Under the pieces are notes generated by a model that saw only the letters and a list, made by a program, of their open reading frames with translations, did not search any database and was not told the origin of the DNA. Below, one piece after another: positions 32,486 through 46,422 of a stretch of 64,000 nucleotides of DNA. Made by a program: the position numbers and the translations under genes. Within the stretch, counting starts at the first letter, position 1; every line of letters starts with the position of its first letter. Origin of the DNA: Terriglobia bacterium (lineage in GTDB: Bacteria > Acidobacteriota > Terriglobia > Terriglobales > Acidobacteriaceae); NCBI GenBank assembly GCA_020073565.1, contig JAIQEY010000003.1, positions 1 through 64,000 on the forward strand, in the 5' to 3' direction.

Positions 32486-33442
32486 ATGAAGAATAAACTC
32501 CGTTTTCTTCCGATCCTTCTTTGCTCGACCGGTGCATTGCTTGCCCAGACTGTTGCCCCCGCGCCAAGTCCCGCCAAAAGCGTTCAGGAGCGGCTGGGAT
32601 ATCCCGCCTCGGCGCGGCTGCTGATCATTCATGCCGACGATCTGGGAATGAATCACTCGGTGAACCGGGCCACATTCGAAGCGCTCGAGAAAGGCTGGAT
32701 TACGTCCGCCAGCATCCTCGTGCCCTGCCCGTGGTTTCCCGAGGTGGCGAAGTGGGCGAGGGAGCACCCCGACGCCGATGTCGGAATTCACCAGGCCCTC
32801 AACAGCGAATGGACGAACCTTCGCTGGGGTCCTGTGAGCCCAAATGACAAGGTAGCCAGCCTGCTGGACGCGGACGGGTATCTTCCCCTCGAAACGCCGG
32901 CCGTCGCGCAAAATGCCAAACTCCCAGAGGTTGAGACCGAACTGCGGGCGCAAATCGATCGCGCCAAATCTGCGGGCATTCATCTTACGCACCTGGATAC
33001 GCACATGGCCGCCTTGTTCGGCTCAACCGATCTGTACAAGCTGTATCAAAGGATGGGGTACAGCTACGGTCTGCCGATCCTGGAAGAGTGGGAGGGGACT
33101 CACGGTCCGATCAGTATAGCGCCGCCAGCAGACGAGGTTCTGATCCAGAAGGTCATTTCCATCAATCCAGGAATCGAAGCGAAAGACTGGGCAAATTGGT
33201 ACGAGAAGCAGCTTGCGGCGCTCGGTCCGGGCGTTTATCAGATCATTGTGCATCTCGCATACGATGACGAAGAGATGCGGGGCGCAACCTACGATCATCC
33301 CGATTGGGGCGCCGCATGGCGGCAGCACGATCTGGACATGGTCAAAAGCCCAGAGTTCCAGCAGTTCCTGAAACAGCAGGGCTTCGTGCTGGTGGGCTGG
33401 AGGGAGTTAGCAAAAGCATTGCCGAAGAACTACGGCAAGTGA
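32486..33442 (+). CDS. ChbG/HpnK family carbohydrate deacetylase, exported
   Basis: Polysaccharide-deacetylase-like TIM-barrel enzyme of 318 residues; family members remove an acetyl group from chitooligosaccharides (ChbG) or hopanoid-linked GlcNAc (HpnK). A signal peptide is visible (LRFLPILLCSTGALLA). Metal-site motifs: LIIHADDLGMNHSVN, DVGIHQALNSEW and THLDTHMAALFG, then VHLAYDDEEMRG. The ATG at 32486 with GAGGTG 10 nt upstream is preferred over the ATG at 32324, which lies inside the divergent permease. The gene ends 13 bp inside the convergent CRTAC1 gene. A role with the GH2 enzyme in chitin/chitosan use is plausible. Confidence 0.86.
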   Translation: MKNKLRFLPILLCSTGALLAQTVAPAPSPAKSVQERLGYPASARLLIIHADDLGMNHSVNRATFEALEKGWITSASILVPCPWFPEVAKWAREHPDADVGIHQALNSEWTNLRWGPVSPNDKVASLLDADGYLPLETPAVAQNAKLPEVETELRAQIDRAKSAGIHLTHLDTHMAALFGSTDLYKLYQRMGYSYGLPILEEWEGTHGPISIAPPADEVLIQKVISINPGIEAKDWANWYEKQLAALGPGVYQIIVHLAYDDEEMRGATYDHPDWGAAWRQHDLDMVKSPEFQQFLKQQGFVLVGWRELAKALPKNYGK

Positions 33443-35220
33443 GCGGGGAGATCGCTGAAGGACGCGGCGCTCTGAATGCCCTGCCCTTCCACGACGGTGT
33501 AGATCTTGTCGGCTGGGATGTCTTTCAAGACTTCAATCTTGCCGGAAGGCCAGCGCACCTCGACCGTCTCCATCTTTGTTGCCGATCCAAGGCCGAAGTG
33601 CAATCGCAGATCATTCTGTGAGAGATAACTGGCTCCGCCACGTACCTCGTCGAATTGGGTGAGGCTCCCCGCGTGCACCGTGACGCGAGCGCCAATGGCA
33701 GCACGATTACTTTTGGTTCCGACCAGGTGGAATAGCACGCGATGATTGCCGGCGCTATTGGTATTGAGCAGCAGCGATGGCGGCTCGCCCACATTCAGCA
33801 CAACAATATCGACGTTGCCATCATTCACAATGTCGCCGAAGGCTGCCCCCCGCCGGGATTTCAACGGCATGTCAGCCAGCCCAGCTGCTTTCGATACGTC
33901 TTCAAACGTACCATTGCGCAGGTTGCGATGCAGCAGCAGAGGCTGGGCATAGGCGGCGCTGCCCTTCACTGTATCCATCTGCGGATAGACGTGGCCGGTA
34001 GCGACGAAGAGATCGAGCCAACCGTCGTTCTCCATGTCAAAAAAAGTCGTGCCCCAGCCCAAGTAGGGCAGGCTGGGCTGGCCGAGATGGGACTGCATCG
34101 CGACATCTTCAAATCCGCGCGCACCCTGGTTGCCATAGAGCGTGTTGGGCTGGTCGGCGAACTCCGTGATGAACATCGAGAGGCGCCCGCTGTGATCGTA
34201 ATCGCCCCAGGTCACGCCCATGGATCCCAGCGCCTGCCCTTCGCTGTTCATGGCAATGCCGCTCACCATCGCTTCATCGGTAAAAGTGCCATTGTGATTG
34301 TTGCGGTAGAGATGATTCGGGGTGGCGTCGTCGGCGACGAACAGGTCGGGCCAGCCATCGTTGTCGTAATCGCCCCAGGTCACGCCGAGCCCGTAGTATT
34401 TGTCGGGATCGTCGACGCCTGCTTTTTTCGAAACTTCTTCGAACGTGCCATCGCCGCGATTGTGGTAGAGCAGATCGGTTTCGCCCTCCATCCCCCAAGG
34501 CCCGCACTGCACGGGCGCACCCTTGAAGTGGCAAAACTTGGTCGAGCCGAACTCCGGCAGGTTATTCATATCAACGCGGACATAGCGTGATACAAACAAA
34601 TCCACATTGCCGTCGCGGTCGTAGTCACCCCACGCAGCGCCGGTGGAAAAGCCGCCTCCGTGAACGCCGGCTTTCTCCGTTACATCCTCGAAAACGCAGT
34701 TTCCCTTGTTGCGATAGAGTGCGTTGCCGCCATATCCGGTGACGAAGAGGTCAAGGTTGCCGTCGTTGTCGTAGTCGGCGACCGCCACGCCCATGCCCCA
34801 GCCTTTGCGTGCGAGCCCAGCTTTCTGGGTGATATCCGTGAACGTGAGATCGGCGTCCTGATGCCACAGCGTGACCAGACGATCCCCGCCCTGTTTGTAG
34901 CGATCAACACTAGAGCCGTTCACCATGACGATGTCGAGTTTGCCGTCGTTGTCGCAGTCGAACAGGCCGACGCCGCCGCTCATCGATTCGACAACGTAGT
35001 GCTTCTCGGCCGACGAGATGTGGGATGCCGTGAGTCCCGCTTGGGCGGCGATGTCGCGAAAAACGGGAACCGGATCGGTGACCTTAGGGGCAGACCATTT
35101 TCCTTCGGTGCGCGCCGACGGAAGTTTTGTGGGAGGTCCCATCGGCCGTTGCGGCTCGGCCTGCGCCGACAGCAGGCCGGTAAAGCCGATTACTAGAATG
35201 GCAATCTGGCCGGCCCGCAT
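33430..35220 (-). CDS. CRTAC1-type protein: FG-GAP/VCBS propeller with ASPIC/UnbV domain
   Basis: Exported protein of 596 residues. Signal peptide MRAGQIAILVIGFTGLLSAQ (ATG at 35220; an upstream ATG at 35244 adds eight residues). Then a propeller with seven calcium-loop-like repeats, among them DCDNDGKLD, DYDNDGNLD, DYDRDGNVD and DYDNDGWPD, each preceded by a blade with a GxxW/LYRN pattern. From about residue 500 comes an ASPIC/UnbV domain: LVGTKSNRAAIGARVTVHAG, RGGASYLSQNDLRLHFGLGS, VEVRWPSGKIEVL. The function of these domains is unknown; they are extracellular in known proteins. Last gene of a four-gene minus-strand cluster with a five-haem cytochrome. Confidence 0.92.
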   Translation of the reverse strand: MRAGQIAILVIGFTGLLSAQAEPQRPMGPPTKLPSARTEGKWSAPKVTDPVPVFRDIAAQAGLTASHISSAEKHYVVESMSGGVGLFDCDNDGKLDIVMVNGSSVDRYKQGGDRLVTLWHQDADLTFTDITQKAGLARKGWGMGVAVADYDNDGNLDLFVTGYGGNALYRNKGNCVFEDVTEKAGVHGGGFSTGAAWGDYDRDGNVDLFVSRYVRVDMNNLPEFGSTKFCHFKGAPVQCGPWGMEGETDLLYHNRGDGTFEEVSKKAGVDDPDKYYGLGVTWGDYDNDGWPDLFVADDATPNHLYRNNHNGTFTDEAMVSGIAMNSEGQALGSMGVTWGDYDHSGRLSMFITEFADQPNTLYGNQGARGFEDVAMQSHLGQPSLPYLGWGTTFFDMENDGWLDLFVATGHVYPQMDTVKGSAAYAQPLLLHRNLRNGTFEDVSKAAGLADMPLKSRRGAAFGDIVNDGNVDIVVLNVGEPPSLLLNTNSAGNHRVLFHLVGTKSNRAAIGARVTVHAGSLTQFDEVRGGASYLSQNDLRLHFGLGSATKMETVEVRWPSGKIEVLKDIPADKIYTVVEGQGIQSAASFSDLPAHLP

Positions 35221-35248
35221 GCAGACTGATTGTACCGCGATCAACGTT

Positions 35249-35442
35249 TGTCATCCTGAGCGCAGCAACTGCTTCGCGGCAGCGAAGCAGTTGCGGAGTC
35301 GAAGGACCCCTACTTGTACAAGACTTCGGACCCGCAGACTTAGCGACCGCGGAATCCACTCCAAAGCCACTGCCGCGCGTAGGGATCCTTCGACTCCGCA
35401 GGAACTTCGCTTCGCGAAGTTCCCGCTCCGCTCAGGATGACA
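35249..35442. repeat. Inverted pair of TCATCCTGAGCG-type repeats
   Basis: Copy 1 (35249-35313) runs TCATCCTGAGCG ... GCTTCGCGGCAGCGAAGC ... GTCGAAGGACCCC. Copy 2 (35380-35442) is the same kind in the opposite orientation (GGATCCTTCGACTCCGC ... CTTCGCTTCGCGAAG ... GCTCAGGATGACA). Each has an internal palindrome, and together they could form a large stem. A third copy is at 38986-39048. They fill the gaps between genes of the cytochrome/CRTAC1 cluster. Confidence 0.75.
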
Positions 35443-35448
35443 GCGCTG

Positions 35449-38400
35449 TTACTTTGGATAGCGGAACGAATACCCGCTCGCTTCATTCCCCGACATGAAC
35501 CTCGTGTTGTATTCGAGCTGGTAGTTGATGTGGTCGGCGTCGGCCGGGAATGATTTGCCGGGATAAGGATACGTCCCCATGTCCCGGTAAGGCAGCGGCT
35601 CTACCGTGTCGCCGCGGTAGGCATAGAAGTCCATATCTTTTTCGTAACCGTGCGCGGCAAAGAAATAGTCGCGCACCCAGCCTTGCGGCAGAGGCGGAAG
35701 CTTCGCGGGATCGAAGTCGAGCGCCACTTCATCGCCCGATCCAAAGACAGCAAACTCGTCGTCGGTTGCGGCGAGTAGGGGCCGGACATCGCCATAGCGC
35801 GTATAAGCGCCAGCAGGCCGCGTATAAGGACCAGTCGCGCTGGTCTTCTCGTAGATGTACTTCACGTTGCCCGGAGGCTGGCCTTCTATCTTCAGCGGGA
35901 AGCCGTGGAAGTTGAGGTCGGCGCGAGCCAGCGGCACAGATGAGAGGCGGGCGCTTTGATTTTGGTTGGTGCGGCTCACCAGAATGTTGTCCCAATAAAT
36001 TTGCAGGTTGGTCGTGAGGCGGATGCGCCGCGTCCCTTGCGGCAATTTGCCAGTCAGGTCCGCGGTCATGGTGCGCGCTCCGCCAGACGGGAAACCGAGA
36101 TCATTGATCACGCGGACCCACTGCCCTTGATCGCCGTTTTGTTTGGAAATGAGCGCTTCAACGTAGGGCGCGAACGGCTGCAGGTGCGCCTGGTCGGCGG
36201 CGTACATGCTGGTCGCAGTGAAGTATTCGATCTCGCCGTGCATCAGGAGCCAGAGCGGGCCGCCGCGGTAGGGCTCGCCCAGATCGAGTTCCAGGCTGTG
36301 CGGCTCGGTGAAGCCCGCAAACGACAGCACTTTGAAATCGCCGAAATAGCGGTGCGCGAGCAGGTCTGGGAGCACGTTGTGGCCGTGCTCGTCCCACGCG
36401 CCCGCGGGCGGGCGGGCATCCCTGGTGAAAACTACTTTGAATGGCGGGTATGGAGGATTGCTGGCGAAGTATTCGTTGGGATAGACATCGACGTTCTCCG
36501 GATGATCCACGGCCAATAAATTCACTTGATCGAGGTAGACCGACTCTTCGAGCGGCTCCATGAAGCGGAAGCTGAGTCGGCCGTCTTTTTCGCGAAGGGT
36601 GTCGCGGTCGAGCTTGATGTATTCGGTGGGCCGCGCGATATTGCGCTCGTTCGGGCCAACCCAATGCCCGACCGCGCCCGCGCCCAGCGTGTCGCCGACC
36701 AGTTCATATTCGTGGCCGTCCCAGGCAAACAGCGTGGGACACGAACTGCCCCGGCGATCAATTTCCAGAACGTCTTGCCGCTTGTTGGCGGCGACTTCGA
36801 TTTCGTCCTGCAGAACGCCGGTCGGCCATACCATCCGGACGACGTCGGCTTCTTTCGCCTGCCCCAGGCCAATGGTGAGGTAAGGCGAGTTCTGCCCGAG
36901 ATAGCCGGACGATCCGTACACTTCGAATTTCTGCCGCAGCCCAGCGGAGAAAACTTCGACCTTCGTCCCGATGGCGCTCTTGTTGTCGTTCAGCCCCTTG
37001 AGCGCGAGGCGCAGCGAGTTGTTCTTGTTGCCGCCTTCGTTGCGAAGCAGCACGGCGGGTCCGTGGTTCTGCGTGATCAGCAGATCGACGGCGCCGTCGT
37101 TGTCGTAGTCTCCAGCAATGATGGCACGCGGCTCTTTGAGTTGAATCTTGTCGAGACCGACGTCGACGCTGACGTCTTTCCATCCGTCAAGTCCGAGATT
37201 GCGGAAGAGACGAACCTCGCCGCGGCCGTCTTTCGCCTCACCGACGGCGGCAACGTCAACCCAACCGTCGTTGTCATAATCGATGGCCGTGACACCGTAA
37301 CCGCGAACCCAATCCACCTTTGGCAGGGGGACCTGCTCGAAGACTTTGCCTTGCTTGTTCTGCCAGAGGCTGATACCCGGCGCTTCCCAATGCGTGAAAG
37401 CAATATCCATCCAGCCGTCGTGGTTGAAATCGAGAACGGCAATTCCCCTCGGATAGTCGGGGACAGCAGTTGCCCAAGGCTCCAGAGTAGGGAATTTACC
37501 TTCCCTGGGATTCTGGTACAAGACCGGAGCCCGCCACCCAGCTACGACAAGATCGATGGCCCGGTCATTGTTATAGTCGGTCGCGAGTGCTCCGTTGCTG
37601 GGCGGCCCGAATTTCAAGCCGGTAGGATCTGAAACGTCCGTAAAGGTCTGATTGCCATTGTTGCGAAACATCATATTGGACGTGACAAACACTCCGTTAC
37701 AAATTTGCGAGTCCGGCTTGCGTGGATCAAAGCAAGGGCCCTTGCTGTATCGGGTTAGATAAAGATCCAGGTCGCCGTCGTGGTCGTAGTCAACGAACGT
37801 CAAGCCCAGGTTGAATCCATCGCTTTTGATGCCCGCCACTTCGGTTACGTCCTTGAACGTTCCGCCCTTCTCATGGCGGAGCAGAAGTACGCGGCCATCC
37901 AGACTAAGCGCGATGTCAACGAATCCGTCGTTGTCGTAGTCTCCGGTCGTACAGCTGAGACCGTGCAGTGTAGGATCGAGCCCGACCGTCTTGCTAACGT
38001 CCTCAAACTTGCCACCTCCGTTATGAAAAAGGACAAGCCCTCGTTCGGAGCCGCCATCCGGAAGCAGCAAATCAATCTGGCCATCGTTGTCATAGTCAAG
38101 AAAGCATGCGCCCGGGCCGAGAAAGGAAGCGAGGTCTTTGCTGTCGCTGGCCGAGGGTTTCGATGCGATGCCGGCACTCTTCGTCACATCCACAAACTTC
38201 ACCGGGATCGCCTCTGCCATTTTCTCCACCGCCACCGGCGATTCTTCCGCGCGCGAATACTTTCCCTGCTCGCCATACACCAGGCTGATCGGCGAGCCCA
38301 GTTTGTTCTGCGTGATGTACTGGAATTTCTTCATTGCCTCATGGGCGGGATCGGCTTGGCCGGATTGCTGGTAGGAGCGGGCCAGACCGAATTGGGCTGA

Positions 38401-38907
38401 GGCGTGCAGCGGGTCGATCTTGAGCGCGTGCTCAAAGGCGCTGATCGCCTCCGGGAACTGCTTCAGCTGCGCGTAGGTGGAACCGAGAAAGTACCAGGTG
38501 TCGGCGTCGTTGGGATCGATTTCGGTGACGCGGCGGAAGTTGCTGACCGCGGCTTCGGGATTTGAGGAATTCTTGTAGTAGAGGCCGAGGCTGTAAAACG
38601 CGTGTGCCTCGTTCGGGTCGTCTTTTGTGGCCTTCTCGAGCAGGGCTTTCGCTTCGTCGACGCGTTGCAGGTTCAGCAGCGCCACGCCGCGATTCAGCGC
38701 CGTCACTTTCAGGTTGGGATCTTTGGCGGCCGCCTCTTCGAAGGACTTCAGCCCCTTTTCAAATAACTGCTGGTTCATGTAGGCGACGCCGATGTTGTTG
38801 AGTCGGGCCGCTTCCTGGGGATTAGGGGCAGCAGCGGCACCAGCCAGCGCAATAAGAAGAGCAAGAACACACGCAGCGATAGGGGCAATGGTGAGTTTCT
38901 TGATCAT
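35449..38907 (-). CDS. TPR - FG-GAP propeller - ASPIC/UnbV fusion protein with long C-terminal extension
   Basis: Exported protein of 1152 residues. Signal peptide (IAACVLALLIALAGAAAA). Four to five TPRs at about residues 35-200 (LNNIGVAYMNQQLFEKGLKS, FYSLGLYYKNSSNPEAAVSN, WYFLGSTYAQLKQFPEAISA). Then a propeller with seven D-rich loops (DYDNDGQID, DYDHDGDLD, DYDNDGWVD, DYDNDGAVD and others) and an ASPIC/UnbV domain (LKGLNDNKSAIGTKVEVFSA, GQNSPYLTIGLGQ, RMVWPTGVLQDE). From about residue 740 to the end, some 400 residues (starting CPTLFAWDGHEYELVGDTLG) form a beta-rich region with no named domain that I recognise. The second-longest gap in the cluster precedes the next gene. The scaffold role is inferred. 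Confidence 0.9.
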   Translation of the reverse strand: MIKKLTIAPIAACVLALLIALAGAAAAPNPQEAARLNNIGVAYMNQQLFEKGLKSFEEAAAKDPNLKVTALNRGVALLNLQRVDEAKALLEKATKDDPNEAHAFYSLGLYYKNSSNPEAAVSNFRRVTEIDPNDADTWYFLGSTYAQLKQFPEAISAFEHALKIDPLHASAQFGLARSYQQSGQADPAHEAMKKFQYITQNKLGSPISLVYGEQGKYSRAEESPVAVEKMAEAIPVKFVDVTKSAGIASKPSASDSKDLASFLGPGACFLDYDNDGQIDLLLPDGGSERGLVLFHNGGGKFEDVSKTVGLDPTLHGLSCTTGDYDNDGFVDIALSLDGRVLLLRHEKGGTFKDVTEVAGIKSDGFNLGLTFVDYDHDGDLDLYLTRYSKGPCFDPRKPDSQICNGVFVTSNMMFRNNGNQTFTDVSDPTGLKFGPPSNGALATDYNNDRAIDLVVAGWRAPVLYQNPREGKFPTLEPWATAVPDYPRGIAVLDFNHDGWMDIAFTHWEAPGISLWQNKQGKVFEQVPLPKVDWVRGYGVTAIDYDNDGWVDVAAVGEAKDGRGEVRLFRNLGLDGWKDVSVDVGLDKIQLKEPRAIIAGDYDNDGAVDLLITQNHGPAVLLRNEGGNKNNSLRLALKGLNDNKSAIGTKVEVFSAGLRQKFEVYGSSGYLGQNSPYLTIGLGQAKEADVVRMVWPTGVLQDEIEVAANKRQDVLEIDRRGSSCPTLFAWDGHEYELVGDTLGAGAVGHWVGPNERNIARPTEYIKLDRDTLREKDGRLSFRFMEPLEESVYLDQVNLLAVDHPENVDVYPNEYFASNPPYPPFKVVFTRDARPPAGAWDEHGHNVLPDLLAHRYFGDFKVLSFAGFTEPHSLELDLGEPYRGGPLWLLMHGEIEYFTATSMYAADQAHLQPFAPYVEALISKQNGDQGQWVRVINDLGFPSGGARTMTADLTGKLPQGTRRIRLTTNLQIYWDNILVSRTNQNQSARLSSVPLARADLNFHGFPLKIEGQPPGNVKYIYEKTSATGPYTRPAGAYTRYGDVRPLLAATDDEFAVFGSGDEVALDFDPAKLPPLPQGWVRDYFFAAHGYEKDMDFYAYRGDTVEPLPYRDMGTYPYPGKSFPADADHINYQLEYNTRFMSGNEASGYSFRYPK

Positions 38908-38985
38908 CGTGGTTTGCGAATGATTCTATCTGAGCGCGGGCGAGTGGTCGAAACGCTGTCGAGTCGCATCGGCCAACTGAGGGAG

Positions 38986-39048
38986 TAGGGGTCCTTCGAC
39001 TCCGCGGGTCATTCGCTTCGCGAATGGCCCGCTCCGCTCAGGATGACA
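38986..39048. repeat. TCATCCTGAGCG-type repeat, single copy
   Basis: Reads GGGGTCCTTCGACTCCGC, then the palindrome CATTCGCTTCGCGAATG, then CGCTCAGGATGACA. Same orientation and structure as the copy at 35380-35442. It separates two genes of the CRTAC1 cluster and ends 25 bp before the stop of the third one. Confidence 0.75.
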
Positions 39049-39072
39049 AAGTTGAGGTTGCCGGGGGATAGG

Positions 39073-40731
39073 TTACTTCTTCGCGTACGGCCGCGTTGCG
39101 GTCACCCCTTTTCCTTCCTCGACTGTGATTGTTTCCCCCGCCATGATGTTTGCAAGCTTGTCCGCTTGGCCGCTGGGCCACTGGATCTCCACGCTGTCCG
39201 CTTTTGTCTTCGATCCCAGGCCGAAGGTCAGCACCAGTTCGCTTTGCGACAGATAGCTGGAGCCCGACTTCATCATCAGCCACTGCTTGTCGCTCCCGGC
39301 CGTCACGCGGACGATCGCCCCAATTCCGTCACGATTGGATTTCGTTCCTACCAGCTTTAGGCGCAGGCTCTGATTCGTGCCGCCTTCGCTGCGGTAGAGA
39401 TGCGCGGGGCCGCCGTTGGTCATGACCAGGATGTCGAGTGCGCCGTCGTTGTTGATGTCGGCGTAGGCAGTGCCGCGGGCAACCTTGGGAGCCGCAAACC
39501 CCGCGCCCATTTTTGTTGTGACTTCGTCGAATTTTCCGTTGCCCAGGTTGCGGAACAGGTGCGGCGGCTCGGCGTAGCTGACGCGTTTCTGCACGCGCTC
39601 GATTTCGCTTTCGATGTGGCCATCGGCGATGAAGATGTCGGGCCAGCCATCGTTGTCGTAATCGAAAAAGAAGCAGCCAAAGCCAAGCGTGACGAGCGTG
39701 GCGCGCCCGACTTCGGAGCGCGGCGCTTCGTCCACAAACAAGCCGTTGCCCTCGTTGTGGTAGAGCGAAAGCATCTGGTTCGAGAAATTCGTGATGACCA
39801 GGCTGGCGCTGCCGGATCGGTCGTAATCGGCGGCATCCACGCCCATGCCCGCGCGGGCGATGCCGTCCTCACTGAACGCGACCCCGGCACTCACGGCGTG
39901 CTCTTCGAACGCGCCGTTCTTCTTGTTCAGGTAGAGCTTGTTGGGCTGCGTGTCGTTGGCGATCAGAAGGTCAGGCCAGCCGTCGTTGTTGTAGTCGAGG
40001 ATCGCGATCCCGAGGCTCTTGGAAGTCGGATCATTGAGCCCAGTTTTCTGTGTGGCGTCTTCGAACTTGCCGCCCATGTTATGCCAGAGGCGAACCGACG
40101 TTCCCTTGTAGGACTCGGGCGTGCAGTACGATTTGTGCGTGCCGTCGAGCGTGCAGTAGAGATCGCCTTGCTCCGACCACTGCACGTAATTGGAGACGAC
40201 GAGATCGAGTTTGCCGTCGCGATCATAGTCGAACCACGCGGCGCTGGTGGAAAATTCACTTGGGCCCCAGAGGCCTGCGGGCTTGGTCACATCGGTGAAA
40301 GTGCTGTTGCCATTATTGTGGAAGAGATGGCTCTGGCCGACGGCGGTGATGAAGATGTCATCGAAGCCGTCGTTGTCATAGTCGCCGATGGCAGCACCGA
40401 GCCCGAAGAGCGAAATGCCGAGACCAGCTTTGCTGGTCACATCCGTGAGAGTGCCGTCGTGATTGTTGTGATAGAGCTTTGGAGTTGTGGCGCCACTCTT
40501 GGCGTGGCCAGGCCAGTCCTGGCCGTTGATGAGCAGGATGTCGGGCCAGCCGTCGTTGTCGTAGTCGATGAAGGCGCAGCCGGGGCCCATGGTTTCCGGC
40601 AGCCACTTTTTTCCGAAGGCGCCGTTGTTGTGGATGAAGCGGATGCCGGCCTGGGCGGTGATGTCGCGGAAGGTGATGGTTTGCGCGCGGGCTACCACAC
40701 CGAATATAAGGACAACTAACCACAGAGACAC
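39073..40731 (-). CDS. CRTAC1-type protein: FG-GAP/VCBS propeller with ASPIC/UnbV domain
   Basis: Exported protein of about 552 residues. Propeller with seven loop motifs (DYDNDGWPD, DYDNDGFDD, DYDRDGKLD, DYNNDGWPD, DYDRSGSAS, DYDNDGWPD, DINNDGALD) and blade ends such as LYHNNHDGTLTDV. The ASPIC/UnbV domain follows: KLVGTKSNRDGIGAIVRVTA, GSSYLSQSELVLTFGLGSK, VEIQWPSGQADKL. The GTG at 40731 gives a compact signal peptide (SLWLVVLIFGVVARA, cleavage before QT). An ATG at 40839 would prepend 36 residues encoded by an octad repeat, which is unlikely. Interestingly the chosen start codon itself lies in that repeat. Second gene of the cluster. Confidence 0.88.
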   Translation of the reverse strand: MSLWLVVLIFGVVARAQTITFRDITAQAGIRFIHNNGAFGKKWLPETMGPGCAFIDYDNDGWPDILLINGQDWPGHAKSGATTPKLYHNNHDGTLTDVTSKAGLGISLFGLGAAIGDYDNDGFDDIFITAVGQSHLFHNNGNSTFTDVTKPAGLWGPSEFSTSAAWFDYDRDGKLDLVVSNYVQWSEQGDLYCTLDGTHKSYCTPESYKGTSVRLWHNMGGKFEDATQKTGLNDPTSKSLGIAILDYNNDGWPDLLIANDTQPNKLYLNKKNGAFEEHAVSAGVAFSEDGIARAGMGVDAADYDRSGSASLVITNFSNQMLSLYHNEGNGLFVDEAPRSEVGRATLVTLGFGCFFFDYDNDGWPDIFIADGHIESEIERVQKRVSYAEPPHLFRNLGNGKFDEVTTKMGAGFAAPKVARGTAYADINNDGALDILVMTNGGPAHLYRSEGGTNQSLRLKLVGTKSNRDGIGAIVRVTAGSDKQWLMMKSGSSYLSQSELVLTFGLGSKTKADSVEIQWPSGQADKLANIMAGETITVEEGKGVTATRPYAKK

Positions 40732-40805
40732 AGAGTCACAGAGGAAATCAGAAAGAGATCTTTCTCTGTGACGGAGCCCGCCCTGAGCGTAGTCGAAAGG
40801 TGTCT
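40721..40805. repeat. 8-bp tandem array CACAGAGn with facing arm
   Basis: Left arm: ACAGAG at 40722, 40730 and 40738, an exact 8-bp period. Facing arm: CTTTCTCTGTGACGG near 40759-40774 and GTGTCTCTGTGGTGAA at about 40800-40815. The arms are complementary, so a hairpin may form between the cytochrome gene and the next CRTAC1 gene. The start codon and signal peptide start of the latter overlap the left arm. Confidence 0.75.
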
Positions 40806-40835
40806 CTGTGGTGAATTTTATGTTGAAACCAAGGA

Positions 40836-43727
40836 TCACTTGGAGGCTCCGGCTGAGATCGCGCTCTTCTTTGCTCCCGAGTTGCGCTCGGCTTGCACGG
40901 GCGAAACGCGCGTCCCTCCACGAGCGCTGATAATCGGCAGCGGCACGGAGACGTGTTCGTGGATCGACTGGCGCTCGTTATTGTCTTCAGGATTGAGTTG
41001 GCGGTAGGGACCGGTGATCTCCTGCGAGGCTTCGTCGGCTTTGAAACGTAGATAGCGCGCCTGATGTTCCTTGGCCATTTTCTCGTTGCCGAGTCCGTTG
41101 TAGCAGAGCATCAGGTTGTAGTGAGCCTGCAGGTCCTCCGGGTCGATCGTCAGCACTTGCTGCAGAACTTTGACGGCATCCGCATATTTCCGTTCGAGGA
41201 ACAACACGCGGCCAAGGTTGTTGAGCGCTACTCGGTCGCGCGGATACCCCGCCAGCACAATCTGCAAGTGTTCCGCAGCTTTGTCGTAATCGCCCGTAGC
41301 CTTCATCAGGGCGCCGTAGAAGAAATTCGTGCGCGCGAGCTTCGGATTAATGGCCAGCGCCTTCTCGAGAACCACGCGGGCGCGCGCAACATCGCCTTCC
41401 TGCAGAGCGGCGCGGCCGATGTTGACCCAGCCATCGGGATTCTGCGGGTCGATCTCGGTCACTTTTTCGAAGGCCGACTGCGCGGCTTTCAGATCTCCTT
41501 GCAATAACAAGCCGATGCCGTAGTCATTCCAGCGTTGCCAGTCTTCCTTGCTGAGCTGCGTTCTGGGCTCAGGCATGGGAGCATGGGCGGGCAACACACT
41601 CAGAGCAACTTGGTTTTCCGCCACAGTCACGATCGGCAGATCGGGGACTTTCGCTTCTTTGGCTGACACATCGGACTGGACAACGCTGGTCAGAATGTAG
41701 CGCGTGTCGTCGTGATCGGGCGTCACTTCGTGGGCAGGCTGTGTGGGATCGGGAACGGCGCGGAAAGAAAACTGCGTGCCCCACCACGCAAACTTCCGGT
41801 AGCAAAGGCGCGCGGTCAGGGTGATCTTGCCGCCCGTCTTCTCAGGGACTTTCATGCGGAAGTGCACGGTGTCGGCTGCTCCGGGAGGAATCAGGCGTAC
41901 ATACACAACCGCGCGCGTCGCCCAGGCGTTGCGCTTGTTGATGGGATGGCCGTGACCGTCTACTTGAAGCGAGCGATAGAAGTGCGCGCCTTTTTCGACT
42001 GGACCCTTGCCGCCATCTTCCGCCATGCCGCTCCAGAAGATGGTCTGGCCCCTGTCATCGACGCCCTTGAGTTCGAGCCAGGTATCGTAGGCGTCCACAG
42101 TGCCGCCGGGAAAAAAATGGCCGACGCGCTTGGTGCGCACGACCACGTCGACGCGCACGGTATCGCCGCGGCGGACGGTGGGCTGCACGCGATCGAGCGG
42201 GGCGGTGATGGGGGCGACCTCACCAGCCTCTCCGGGAGTGATTTTTGCCTCGGCTTCTTCTCCGACGGCGAACGTCGTGGACATTTCGCGCTGCGCGACC
42301 GCTCCAGCTTTGACTTCACGTTCCGGAGACAGCGCGAAAATATCGACCGTCAGCGCGCCGCTGGTGAGAAAGTTTTCCGTCACTTTCAACTGCTCGGCAT
42401 CCTCGTTCGCGGTGGGCAGAGCCGTGTTGGCCGCGGGAAAGCGGTGCGAGTGTACCTTGCCGGCGACGTTTCCCATATCGCTGGAAGGTTCGAGCGGCAT
42501 GTGGCAGTCGGGACACCCCTGCGGCTTCGGTGGATAGTAAAACGAGCGCGCGCCTTGTCCCGAAACGCCGCTGGCTTGCCAGTTGTCATACTCGTTGAAA
42601 CCGCGAATCCACCGGTAGTGATTGACCGGCACGTCGAGATGCACCTTGTGACACGCGGAACAGAATTCGGCCGTCTGATCGCGCATAAACGGCTTGAGGA
42701 AAACGCGGCGGTGGGGCTCGGGATTCAGCTTCGTTAAGATGTCGTGCAAATAGCGGATGACCGGGTTCTTGCTGGCGGCAAGCTCGTGCAGCTTGGGGTA
42801 TTCAAGGTGGAAATCCCCTTGCCCCATGGTGCTCTTCACGTCGGCAATGGCATGGCACATCATGCAGCCGAGGCCAGCCTGCGCCTCAGGGGTGTGGACA
42901 ATCTGCTTGATCGGCGTGTCCATCTTGCCGGCGTAGAGGACGGCGGGATCGTGGCAGCCGCCGCACCACTTCGAAGGCTTCGTGCCAACGACGTCCTGCA
43001 TGTATTCGATACTCTTGCGATACCACTGATTGTTGAAGGACGAGAAGTGGTGTGCTGAGCTGTACCACTGCTTGTAGATGTCTTCATGGCAGCGCTTGCA
43101 GGAATCCGACTCCATGAAGAACTTGCTGGGAATTTTCTGGCCGCCGTAAACTTGCGCGGAACTGGGGAAAAACGCGCCCGACGGGCCGTCACCTTCACCC
43201 TCCATGGTGTCGGGAGGCAAGGCCGGATTCTTGATGACGGTTCGCGTCAACCACCGGGATTCGCGCTGGTAGCGCGCCGCCCAGCTAACTGCGCCGAGCA
43301 CGGCAAGACAGACCGCTAGTCGCATGGCTGCATTTGAACTCAGCCAGCCGCGGCGTCCGAGGAACTCGGCGAGCAAGCAGCCAATTCCGATCACGCTGAT
43401 GATGATGTGCGCGTACAGCCAGCGGTACTCGCTGTGCGGCGTGCCCTTAAACACGAGCAGCACGCCGACCGCAGCCCCAGCCGCGATGAGCAGCCAGCCC
43501 GCCTTCCAAATGAAGTTCCCGTCTCTGAGCAAGCGCCATAGCAAAAGTACAAGAAGGATAGTCGCCAGGATTCCACCAAACACATGCATCACAATGGCGG
43601 CAGGATAAAGAAGATTGGCTTGCGGAAAGGGGTAGAGATAGGCCGCAGAAATCAGCAGGACGAAGATCAGCCCGCGCAGCAGTTTCTGTGTGAATGAGAG
43701 ATTCGAGACAGCCATTCGAGGCATCAC
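40836..43727 (-). CDS. Membrane-anchored five-haem cytochrome c with C-terminal TPRs
   Basis: Protein of 963 residues. Residues 1-150 contain four or more membrane helices (LIFVLLISAAYLYPF, AAIVMHVFGGILATILLVLL, WLLIAAGAAVGVLLVF, IIISVIGIGCLLAEFL). An extracytoplasmic region follows with five CxxCH haem sites at residues 210, 255, 288, 356 and 405 (CKRCH, CGGCH, CMMCH, CSACH, CPDCH), spaced like the cytochrome c554 family. Then a beta-rich domain to about 700, and TPRs at about 735-905 (NDYGIGLLLQGDLKAAQSAF, YDKAAEHLQIVLAGYPRD). The last roughly 25 residues (with RGGTRVSPVQ) are encoded by a dispersed repeat. It is first in transcription order of the cluster; an electron-transfer role is inferred. 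Confidence 0.9.
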   Translation of the reverse strand: MMPRMAVSNLSFTQKLLRGLIFVLLISAAYLYPFPQANLLYPAAIVMHVFGGILATILLVLLLWRLLRDGNFIWKAGWLLIAAGAAVGVLLVFKGTPHSEYRWLYAHIIISVIGIGCLLAEFLGRRGWLSSNAAMRLAVCLAVLGAVSWAARYQRESRWLTRTVIKNPALPPDTMEGEGDGPSGAFFPSSAQVYGGQKIPSKFFMESDSCKRCHEDIYKQWYSSAHHFSSFNNQWYRKSIEYMQDVVGTKPSKWCGGCHDPAVLYAGKMDTPIKQIVHTPEAQAGLGCMMCHAIADVKSTMGQGDFHLEYPKLHELAASKNPVIRYLHDILTKLNPEPHRRVFLKPFMRDQTAEFCSACHKVHLDVPVNHYRWIRGFNEYDNWQASGVSGQGARSFYYPPKPQGCPDCHMPLEPSSDMGNVAGKVHSHRFPAANTALPTANEDAEQLKVTENFLTSGALTVDIFALSPEREVKAGAVAQREMSTTFAVGEEAEAKITPGEAGEVAPITAPLDRVQPTVRRGDTVRVDVVVRTKRVGHFFPGGTVDAYDTWLELKGVDDRGQTIFWSGMAEDGGKGPVEKGAHFYRSLQVDGHGHPINKRNAWATRAVVYVRLIPPGAADTVHFRMKVPEKTGGKITLTARLCYRKFAWWGTQFSFRAVPDPTQPAHEVTPDHDDTRYILTSVVQSDVSAKEAKVPDLPIVTVAENQVALSVLPAHAPMPEPRTQLSKEDWQRWNDYGIGLLLQGDLKAAQSAFEKVTEIDPQNPDGWVNIGRAALQEGDVARARVVLEKALAINPKLARTNFFYGALMKATGDYDKAAEHLQIVLAGYPRDRVALNNLGRVLFLERKYADAVKVLQQVLTIDPEDLQAHYNLMLCYNGLGNEKMAKEHQARYLRFKADEASQEITGPYRQLNPEDNNERQSIHEHVSVPLPIISARGGTRVSPVQAERNSGAKKSAISAGASK

Positions 43728-43899: not shown

Positions 43900-45318
43900 T
43901 CAGGTGAGTTGGATGGAAGGGCCGACCCAATCGCCTCTTGCCTGTTCCAGAGCCGCCGCGATTGCCAGGATCAGTTCTTCTTCCCACGGTCGTCCCACAA
44001 TCTGCACACCGATCGGCAGGCCTTCTTCGGAGAGGCCGATTGGAACTACGACGGCCGGGAAACCCAGCAGGTTGAACCACTCGCAGTAGCTCCAGGCGTC
44101 AAGATACTTCACGGTCTTGCCCTCGACGTTCCACTCCCGCTCACCGTGGCGGAAAGCTGGGATTGCGGCTGTGGGGCAAAGCAGCACAGGATACTTCCGC
44201 ATCTGGCGGAGAATCCGCTCGCGCACGTCGTCGCGGCCCAACCAGGTGGCCAGCAACGAGTCGCCGGAGTGGGCCGGCTCGGCAGAGGTCCAAGAGGAAA
44301 ATTCCCGCAAAATCGCGCTGAGTTCCGATTCGTGGCCGCGAAACATCGGGCCGAGGATCATGCCTCCGGCCGTGCCAAACAGTTTCCACCAGAGTTCTCG
44401 TGCTTCCTCGAGTCCGTCGGGCAGGAAGGATTCGACACGATATCCCGCCTCTTCGAGGGCGCTCGCGGATCGGCGCACAGCGTCGCGTGTTTCGGCGGTG
44501 ACCGGCGTCCGGCCATCATCCTCGAAGAAGCCAATGCCCACAGCTTTGACTTCCTCCTCGTGAATTTCACGAACCGGGACTGGAGCGGCACAAGGATCGC
44601 CATCGTCGGCACCGGCCATCGCGTTGAAGAGAACCTGCAAGTCCCCAACGGTGCGTGCCATCGGGCCGACCACGCCGAGCAAGGCGAACGGGCCGCCGGA
44701 CTTCGGAAAGTGTCCAGTTGAAGGAATACGTCCGGGTGTTGGCTTGAGTCCACAGATTCCACAGAAATGCGCGGGTTCGCGGATTGATCCGCCACCGTCG
44801 CTGCCCACGCCACCGGCGGAGAGTCCGGCGGCGATGGCGGCCGCTTCCCCGCCGCTGGATCCTCCTGCGGTGCAAGTCAGATCCCAGGGGTTGTTTGTTC
44901 TGCCATATATAAGGTTGTCGGTTTCCCATGCCATGAGCAACTCGGGTGTGTTAGTGACGCCGAGAATCACGGCTCCGGCCGCTCGCAAACGTGCGACCAG
45001 GGGCGCATCTTCAGCTGCGATGTATCCGGAGCGCAAGCGTGTGCCCGCCTCCGAGCGATGACCACCAACATCAATCGAGCTTTTGATCGAGAGCGGAACA
45101 CCGTGCAACGGCCCGAGATCGGCTCCCCGAAGAACCGCCTTCTCGGCCTCCTGGGCCTGAGCCAACACCAGTTCGGGCTTCCAGTCGACGATGGCGTTCA
45201 GCGTTGGATTGAGGCGCTCGATGCGGTCGAGGTGAAGGCGAGCCACCTCGACCGCTGATATGTCTTTCTTGCGGATCTGTGCGGCGATGTCTCGTGCGGA
45301 AGAGAAACTTGCTGTCAT
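43900..45318 (-). CDS. Amidase (amidase signature family)
   Basis: Amide hydrolase with a Ser-cisSer-Lys catalytic triad; cytoplasmic. The Lys is in HGVPLSIKSSIDVGG, the cis-Ser in TAGGSSGGEAAAIAAG and the nucleophile Ser in GSDGGGSIREPAHFCG. The 472 residues from ATG 45318 match the family; an upstream ATG at 45345 adds nine residues with no support. Specificity is not clear: it resembles GatA but lacks GatB/GatC neighbours, so it is better called a general amidase. A repeat-rich gap separates it from the FNR-like regulator. Confidence 0.92.
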   Translation of the reverse strand: MTASFSSARDIAAQIRKKDISAVEVARLHLDRIERLNPTLNAIVDWKPELVLAQAQEAEKAVLRGADLGPLHGVPLSIKSSIDVGGHRSEAGTRLRSGYIAAEDAPLVARLRAAGAVILGVTNTPELLMAWETDNLIYGRTNNPWDLTCTAGGSSGGEAAAIAAGLSAGGVGSDGGGSIREPAHFCGICGLKPTPGRIPSTGHFPKSGGPFALLGVVGPMARTVGDLQVLFNAMAGADDGDPCAAPVPVREIHEEEVKAVGIGFFEDDGRTPVTAETRDAVRRSASALEEAGYRVESFLPDGLEEARELWWKLFGTAGGMILGPMFRGHESELSAILREFSSWTSAEPAHSGDSLLATWLGRDDVRERILRQMRKYPVLLCPTAAIPAFRHGEREWNVEGKTVKYLDAWSYCEWFNLLGFPAVVVPIGLSEEGLPIGVQIVGRPWEEELILAIAAALEQARGDWVGPSIQLT

Positions 45319-45370
45319 GAAATGAATGAAATGCCCGAGAACCAAGCCCCAGGGGGGCGATCCAGCTTAG

Positions 45371-45529: not shown

Positions 45530-46246
45530 TCAGGCGCCGATCAACTTCTCCAACGCTGCCCGGTTTGTGATCATCAGAGTCGAGCCGCGCAGTTGCGCGA
45601 ACTGCTTATCGCGGAACTCGCCGAGCACGCGCGTGACGGTTTCGCGGGAGGTGCCGATCAGCTGCGCAATCTCCTCGTGCGTGAGAGCAATCTTGATCCG
45701 GATGCCGTCCTTGGTCTGCTCTCCGTCGCTGGCCCACTCCAGAAGCAGGCGCGCAAGCTTCTCGGAAACCGAGTGCGAGAGTCCAAGCGAACGGATCATC
45801 TCATAGGCGCTCTGGCAGTTCTGGCTCAGGTGATGCGCGGCGCTGAGACAGGCTTCGGCATGATTCTGAAGAAATTTCAGGAAGTCGTCGCGCTTGATGA
45901 AATCCAGCTGACAAGGTTGCAAAGTCTCAGCCGTTAACTCGTAGGGTTTGCCCGACACCGTGCCATGGAGCCCCAGCACTTCTCCCGCTTGGGCGATGCG
46001 AAGAATCAAGGTCTTGCCGTCGCGCGAGGTCGTGGTCAGTTTTACGCGCCCACTGCAAACGATGTAGATGCCACGCGGTGCCTGGCCTTCCACGAACAAC
46101 ACCGCTCCCTGGGGAAAGGCGCTGGCGTACTTAACTCTTTCCAGGTCTTCGATCGACGACTTGGGGAGGTCGCAAAAGAATCCGGAATGGCGGAGTTTGC
46201 ATAAAACGCAACTCTCCGTGATCTGCAGCCCGTAGGGCGAACTCAT
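45530..46246 (-). CDS. Crp/Fnr family transcriptional regulator
   Basis: DNA-binding regulator of 238 residues. N-terminal cysteines ESCVLCKLRHSGFFCDL suggest an FNR-like [4Fe-4S] or redox sensor. The cyclic-nucleotide-binding beta-roll spans about residues 35-130 (VLFVEGQAPRGIYIVCSGRV), followed by the dimer helix and a HTH_Crp domain with LTHEEIAQLIGTSRETVTR as helix-turn-helix. The ATG at 46246 places the Cys motif close to the N-terminus as in FNR; 46261 is an alternative. Targets are unknown. It is divergent from the small secreted protein gene and may respond to oxygen or NO. Confidence 0.93.
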   Translation of the reverse strand: MSSPYGLQITESCVLCKLRHSGFFCDLPKSSIEDLERVKYASAFPQGAVLFVEGQAPRGIYIVCSGRVKLTTTSRDGKTLILRIAQAGEVLGLHGTVSGKPYELTAETLQPCQLDFIKRDDFLKFLQNHAEACLSAAHHLSQNCQSAYEMIRSLGLSHSVSEKLARLLLEWASDGEQTKDGIRIKIALTHEEIAQLIGTSRETVTRVLGEFRDKQFAQLRGSTLMITNRAALEKLIGA

Positions 46247-46422
46247 ACGTGACACCCACACCTACAACTGAATCTTAGCACCCCGTTAGCTTCTGGTAAA
46301 GGCGCCGATAGCCGCCAATGCGGCTGTTCGGGCAGTTGCCGCAGCCCGCTATCATCTGCAATCGAAATCCATCATCGCCCATTGCTACTTGCGCTTGAGA
46401 GTCCCCGCCCGCACAATGGAAT

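Follow-up and report, generated by a model that had tools for sequence, protein, structure and literature searches.

A pentahaem cytochrome gene conserved beside a CRTAC1/ASPIC gene in Acidobacteriota

The DNA analysed here (the window) comprises 64,000 nucleotides (nt), positions 1-64,000 of the forward strand of contig JAIQEY010000003.1 of a Terriglobia bacterium (assembly GCA_020073565.1). At 33430-43727 it carries four consecutive open reading frames (ORFs) on the minus strand which encode, in the order of transcription, a predicted membrane-anchored cytochrome with five c-haem sites (CYT) and three proteins of the CRTAC1/ASPIC type (CR1, TCR and CR2). An earlier note, made from the sequence, had reported four large genes in a row on this strand, and the ORF listing bears this out. 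The comparison of related genomes showed that the conserved unit is CYT with CR1 and not the four genes, so that the cluster is a two-gene core with two optional members, in which known kinds of protein, a c552-type cytochrome and a CRTAC1 protein, occur in a new combination. CYT and CR1 probably work together. No description of such a pairing was found in the open-access literature, subscription journals being mostly outside that search; the earlier view that the system had not been described before holds to this extent, and is to be corrected in that CRTAC1 among HZS-like genes is already in print (PMC12758564, in its accessible part).

Conservation of the CYT-CR1 gene pair

The CYT gene (40836-43727, minus strand, 963 amino acids) encodes a membrane domain with a likely b haem, a pentahaem c domain, a beta domain and TPRs. 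Its conserved partner CR1 (39073-40839, minus strand, 588 amino acids) is a CRTAC1/ASPIC protein, with an integrin-like propeller, whose ORF overlaps that of CYT by 4 nt. A soil acidobacterium is the host: the CYT relatives kept from the contig scan bear the titles Terriglobia, Acidobacteriaceae, Candidatus Sulfotelmatobacter and other Acidobacteriota, and the closest of them shows 92% identity over the 720-residue query. Since the ORFs and their order are kept in related genomes, the cluster is more than a product of chance.

The haem part of CYT was matched by protein search in 44 of 61 genomes, its own included. Four sets of loci were compared: a near set, the best 80 of 196 CYT relatives in the contig scan, 75 of which had at least 400 nt downstream; a deep set of 13 orthologue loci (12 with room downstream), hand-picked from the protein-search matches; a paralogue set of 7 loci, fetched from among 13 rows at greater distance, each standing for a single locus and having E 1.2e-20 or better, with five weaker rows left out; and a phylum-wide set of 40 fetched loci, 37 of them counted, some short or weak matches having been left out. 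In 73 of the 75 near loci and in all 12 deep ones the gene directly 3' of the cytochrome gene, on the same strand, encodes a CRTAC1 protein. This holds also for all 7 fetched loci of the paralogue, which has about 27% identity, and for 18 of the 37 loci of the phylum-wide set, 4 more of which have a CRTAC1 gene directly upstream; the loci are related by descent, and these counts are not of independent events. Stop-to-stop ORFs were used for the counts, greedy ORFs, which hid some CRTAC1 ORFs, giving 70/75 in the near set. Under a tighter overlap rule the figures were 73/75, 9/12 and 16/37 for the near, deep and phylum-wide sets (the paralogue set stands without a recount).

Of the 73 near loci with the pair, 58 have the two genes separated by at most 10 nt. 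Six further genomes outside the 37, whose cytochrome genes lie in loci fetched for TCR (L162, L164, L165, L174, L175 and L179), include five in which a CRTAC1 gene adjoins the cytochrome gene on the same strand; in the sixth, L162, a TCR gene stands 1.2 kb upstream of the cytochrome. The pairing reaches orthologues of about 43-50% identity and a separate paralogue at about 24-28%. As the 6.1 Mb genome of the host holds 17 ASPIC genes, at about one gene per kb, adjacency of CYT and a CRTAC1 gene by chance would be expected at under 1% per gene. In most members of a deeper branch (L101, L108, L110, L111 and L115-L118) an extra CRTAC1 gene was observed directly before the cytochrome gene, besides the one after it.

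The origin of the partners was followed in a CRTAC1 tree built with FastTree from 150 rows after a length filter, with every eighth near locus used. On this tree 12 changes of the label "next to this cytochrome" are counted, and 36-53 in 200 shuffles, labels "other" being possibly wrong where a contig ends. The cytochrome partners are thus clustered but come from several CRTAC1 lineages.

Domains of the cytochrome

CYT contains exactly five CxxCH sites, at residues 210, 255, 288, 356 and 405, within a domain of residues 200-455 (42363-43130, minus strand), and it matches Pfam Cytochrome_C554 at 2.2e-6. The TPRs lie in the C-terminal region, at about residues 740-893 (41049-41510, minus strand; Pfam TPR_2, 4.1e-21), and the five sites and C-terminal TPRs that had been read earlier in the first gene are thus confirmed. 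In an alignment of residues 1-720 with 50 relatives the two cysteines and the histidine of each of the five haem-attachment sites, which are a mark of the c552/PHC family, are kept in 51 of 51 sequences, and covalent attachment of haem is predicted at each. Several branches of the family (L201, L202, L203, L206, L209, L224 and L132-L134) have CX4CH and not CxxCH at the first site; three of the distant paralogues in the alignment show this form, as do six other loci.

The structure model of CYT (mean pLDDT 83.1, pTM 0.80) was compared with solved structures. Residues 200-709 of the model match 5ze8, the pentahaem cytochrome c552 of Thermochromatium tepidum, with Z 21.4 over 344 aligned residues of a 385-residue chain (root-mean-square deviation 3.9, 17% identity), the next-ranked chain having Z 7.9. 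The same structure was first in rank in Foldseek (E 6.2e-8) and was matched in the sequence-profile search at 1.6e-8. As in c552, the five-haem domain of the model is followed by a beta domain, in CYT a predicted beta-sandwich at residues 456-712 (41592-42362, minus strand) which contains the invariant H537. CYT differs from 5ze8 in its extra membrane domain and its TPRs, and in being paired with a CRTAC1 gene. According to the accessible part of PMC11976967, c552 resembles the pentahaem (PHC) family, to which Geobacter ExtKL, Gsu2801 and the sPHC and lPHC cytochromes of cable bacteria belong, and this family is linked to archaeal cytochrome nanowires; the relation of c552 to ExtKL is taken from that source.

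The non-motif histidines invariant in the alignment are only four, H226, H339, H428 and H537 (51/51 each), one fewer than the haems to be served. The site of the fifth haem may therefore be open, as would suit the main alternative for this protein: CYT would be a catalytic multihaem reductase or oxidase, in which a small substrate is turned over at one c haem that lacks a protein ligand, with CR1 as a non-redox subunit. H227 (kept in 47/51), H363 (44/51) or a methionine could, on the other hand, serve as the fifth ligand. At E 0.01 CYT matches 22 Pfam families, and neither NrfA (Cytochrom_C552, PF02335) nor HZS_alpha is one of them; the paralogue L134 gave a weak sub-threshold match to PF02335 (0.029). 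The fold match itself is to c552, which according to the accessible part of PMC11976967 has no clear role assigned to it, although one in sulfur metabolism has been suggested. On balance an enzyme of this kind appears unlikely.

The relay proposed below depends also on the N-terminal part of CYT, residues 12-162 (43242-43694, minus strand), for which five helices are predicted (12-31, 40-68, 72-94, 98-125 and 133-162 in the model). Two histidines in them are invariant in the alignment rows that cover them, H48 in 44/44 and H107 in 46/46, only three of seven distant paralogue rows covering these helices. From sequence and model together it is likely that H48 and H107 form a b-haem site. Cytochrome b561 and DUF4405 domains are likewise helical bundles with conserved histidines; the paralogue L134 passes the Pfam cut-off for DUF4405, and L135 and L206 give sub-threshold matches to cytochrome b561. 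CYT differs from these domains in having only two conserved membrane histidines, and the comparison of its model with b561 4o6y gave Z 7.8, below the level that can be trusted for helical bundles. The five long N-terminal helices suggest that the haem domain would be periplasmic if the N-terminus is inside. The earlier note had recognized a membrane anchor and the haem sites, and had missed the likely b-haem domain and the c552 fold.

A relative of CYT in L212 was observed beside genes for MoaA, a molybdopterin oxidoreductase and a 4Fe-4S subunit (L212:4363-10876). These neighbours are perhaps those of a quinone-linked molybdoenzyme, and from them a possible quinone link of the cytochrome may be drawn.

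The CRTAC1/ASPIC proteins and the optional genes

All three propeller proteins exceed, for both FG-GAP_3 and UnbV_ASPIC, the Pfam cut-off by a wide margin. The combination of FG-GAP repeats with an ASPIC domain that defines CRTAC1/ASPIC proteins is therefore present in CR1, TCR and CR2 alike, and the ASPIC domain formerly ascribed to one of them is indeed there, in all three and not in one. Seven D-rich loops resembling calcium-binding motifs had also been described in each protein, as for seven blades, and this count holds, the blades being counted from the motifs alone: CR1 has seven strict motifs of the form D.[DN].[DNS]G, TCR six and the looser DYNNDR at 444, and CR2 five and the looser DMENDG at 403 and DIVNDG at 471. 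Calcium-loop motifs of propellers are a subject of PMC3123361. CR1 matches human CRTAC1 (PDB 9etn) at 1.4e-23. The human protein likewise joins an FG-GAP propeller to an ASPIC domain; the proteins of the cluster differ from it in being bacterial and encoded beside a cytochrome, and TCR further in its TPRs and an unclassified C-terminal region. An ASPIC/UnbV protein also appears in a table of Solibacter paralogues in the accessible part of PMC3174227. The motif scan found no CxxCH site in CR1, TCR or CR2, and lacking a haem motif they are unlikely to carry electrons themselves. Each appears, when read by eye, to have a signal peptide.

TCR (35449-38907, minus strand, 1152 amino acids) has N-terminal TPRs in addition to its CRTAC1 propeller and ASPIC domain, and ends in about 430 residues (720-1152; 35452-36750, minus strand) which match no Pfam or NCBIfam family at E 0.01; on the NCBIfam side the best 25 of 27 families for TCR were shown, all of them in the TPR or FG-GAP part. 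The unnamed C-terminal region of some 400 residues pointed out earlier in one ASPIC protein is thus confirmed. No relative of it was found by sequence search among solved structures. An alignment of 37 sequences gave a beta-rich model (pLDDT 81.5, pTM 0.85), in which residues about 107-263 resemble discoidin, CBM32 and CBM35-type sandwiches with Z 8 to 9.4, values near the level for which a common arrangement suffices; the rest of the region was barely compared. Neither Foldseek nor structure comparison gave a convincing match over its whole length, and the birnavirus VP2 entries that headed the Foldseek rows are meaningless (TM about 0.1). The region was found in 50 of 149 genomes across the phylum, in open frames of mostly 983 to 1764 codons besides a few short or partial matches, and each strong match shares one ORF with CRTAC1 repeats (40 loci read).

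TCR and CR2 (33430-35244, minus strand, 604 amino acids, a CRTAC1/ASPIC protein) are optional. A TCR-type gene follows CR1 in 45/60 near, 2/8 deep and 1/16 phylum-wide loci, and a fourth gene, for a CRTAC1 protein, follows in 7/37 near loci; a fixed four-gene operon was rejected on the variation of both. A general tie of TCR to a cytochrome was rejected likewise, a PHC cytochrome gene being nearby in only 6 of 40 TCR-centred loci across the phylum. The four-gene system of the earlier note is in this way reduced to its CYT-CR1 part. That note had proposed a gene-neighbourhood search, with scattering of the homologues as the outcome that would speak against it; the homologues of TCR and CR2 proved to be scattered, those of CYT and CR1 not.

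It had further been proposed that CYT and the CRTAC1 proteins form an extracellular electron path with an acceptor beyond the outer membrane and the propellers at the surface. Such a path would be in keeping with the apparent signal peptides, with the CBM-like sandwich of TCR, and with the relation of the c552 fold to PHC/ExtKL and archaeal nanowire cytochromes (PMC11976967, accessible part). Against it, the genome contains 0 matches to MtrB_PioB (PF11854) at E 0.01 and four to Cytochrome_C554, none of the four proteins of the cluster matches an outer-membrane barrel in Pfam, and the five helices of CYT are predicted to hold it in the membrane. Mtr/Pcc conduits, whose multihaem c cytochromes are fed from the quinone pool and in this would resemble CYT, differ by their porin, since no MtrB/PioB porin is found in the genome. 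The surface path is regarded as improbable. What stands of the envelope electron-transfer system is a cytochrome genetically tied to CRTAC1, also in the 7/7 paralogue loci; a surface partner for it is hypothetical.

Upstream of CYT lies an amidase gene (43900-45345, minus strand), probably a neighbour and not a part. It is directly 5' of the cytochrome in 31/68 near, 1/11 deep and 1/36 phylum-wide loci, and was rejected as a member. A gene for a Crp/Fnr-type regulator was noted upstream of the amidase (45530-46261); a relative of at least 55% identity lies within 3.5 kb upstream in 7/68, 1/11 and 0/36 loci of the same sets, and this candidate was rejected too. Promoter-like sites (2 found, 3.4 expected) and terminator-like sites (15 found, 13.8 expected) were uninformative, the promoter-like match at 38951-38923 before TCR being at chance level.

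A proposed role for the pair

The reading preferred here is that CYT is a quinone-linked b-to-c relay of the inner membrane and CR1 its dedicated periplasmic docking partner, and we hold it with belief and doubt in equal measure. The helical domain of CYT would hold a b-type haem and exchange electrons with the quinone pool, the c552-like pentahaem domain would take them into the periplasm, from quinol outwards, and the TPRs would bind a protein partner. CR1, whose propeller would be stabilised by calcium and is followed by an ASPIC domain at the C-terminus, would make contact with CYT and either dock it to a redox partner or position it in the envelope; because CR1 carries no haem motif, it should dock and not conduct, and the electrons would leave CYT to a partner which CR1 holds. 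Where TCR is present, it may add its own TPRs and the discoidin/CBM-like module, which could bind an envelope glycan or protein.

Several observations weigh against this reading. CYT itself reaches no Pfam b-type family at E 0.01, which also sets it apart from the b561/DUF4405 domains. The fetched stretch shows no CRTAC1 gene at 11 of the 37 phylum-wide loci, and at 4 others the closest one is 1.9-5 kb away or on the opposite strand. No fusion of the cytochrome with CRTAC1 occurs among the ORFs examined. Of the 17 ASPIC/CRTAC1 genes of the genome, 14 lie outside the cluster, in ten stretches, and around 13 of these no kept ORF has a CxxCH site, from which it follows that CRTAC1 is not confined to cytochromes.

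The neighbours at ten of the 11 loci without CRTAC1 include genes for GcpE and a metallopeptidase, ROK, amylase, RHS-repeat and kinase proteins and, in L212, the molybdopterin oxidoreductase; at L237 a large neighbouring protein has one FG-GAP_3 match. A Pfam scan of ten proteins from five of the ten stretches around the outside CRTAC1 genes found several TPR proteins, two OMP_b-brl_4 outer-membrane barrels and one glycoside-hydrolase-like protein. The CRTAC1 genes near these barrels, which carry a CarboxypepD_reg domain, were observed at L239:8799-12578 and L242:3364-7167.

The absence of CRTAC1 from 11 of 37 loci would be expected if the two genes had no functional tie, CRTAC1 genes having expanded in the Acidobacteriota and the neighbourhood having been inherited by descent only. 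The 3 to 20 ASPIC genes in each of the 20 genomes examined, the loose attachment of TCR and CR2 and the common descent of the counted loci are in line with this. Mere inheritance accords poorly with an overlapping or near-touching adjacency that persists at about 43-50% identity, and in the paralogue at about 24-28%, and with partners drawn from several CRTAC1 lineages, and it is considered improbable.

The exception among the 14 outside genes lies on contig C58 (L243:7069-12353), where a CRTAC1 gene stands between a gene with an HZS_alpha domain and one whose product, a propeller protein, bears two CxxCH sites. Clusters in which a CRTAC1 gene lies between multihaem HZS-like genes are described, also for Paludibaculum, in the accessible part of PMC12758564; like the CYT-CR1 locus they place CRTAC1 among haem-protein genes, and L243 is of the same kind. 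This arrangement lends some weight to the enzymatic alternative considered above for CYT. The haem proteins of those clusters are an HZS_alpha-domain protein and a propeller-cytochrome, not a membrane-anchored pentahaem protein, and neither CYT nor CR1, TCR or CR2 matches HZS_alpha at E 0.01. CRTAC1 accompanies haem proteins in two unrelated settings, but in the genome of the host it mostly stands beside other genes.

For the family as a whole we propose, tentatively and with somewhat more doubt than belief, that the CRTAC1/ASPIC proteins include a class which serves membrane b/c pentahaem cytochromes as dedicated partners without a redox function. With this goes the view that the pair is a new quinone-linked module of envelope electron transfer in Acidobacteriota, to which a protein of TPRs, propeller and a new C-terminal domain is sometimes added.

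The soil acidobacteria examined commonly encode ASPIC/UnbV and CRTAC1 domains, with 3 to 20 in each genome; these domains occur also in animals, humans included, and we know of no accepted role for them. A cytochrome partner conserved in gene order suggests a testable job for the CRTAC1 family. The low-oxygen metabolism of the Acidobacteriota is poorly known, and CYT would join a likely b-haem quinone site, a pentahaem wire of c552 type and TPRs in one chain; if this is true, it would be a new respiratory module.

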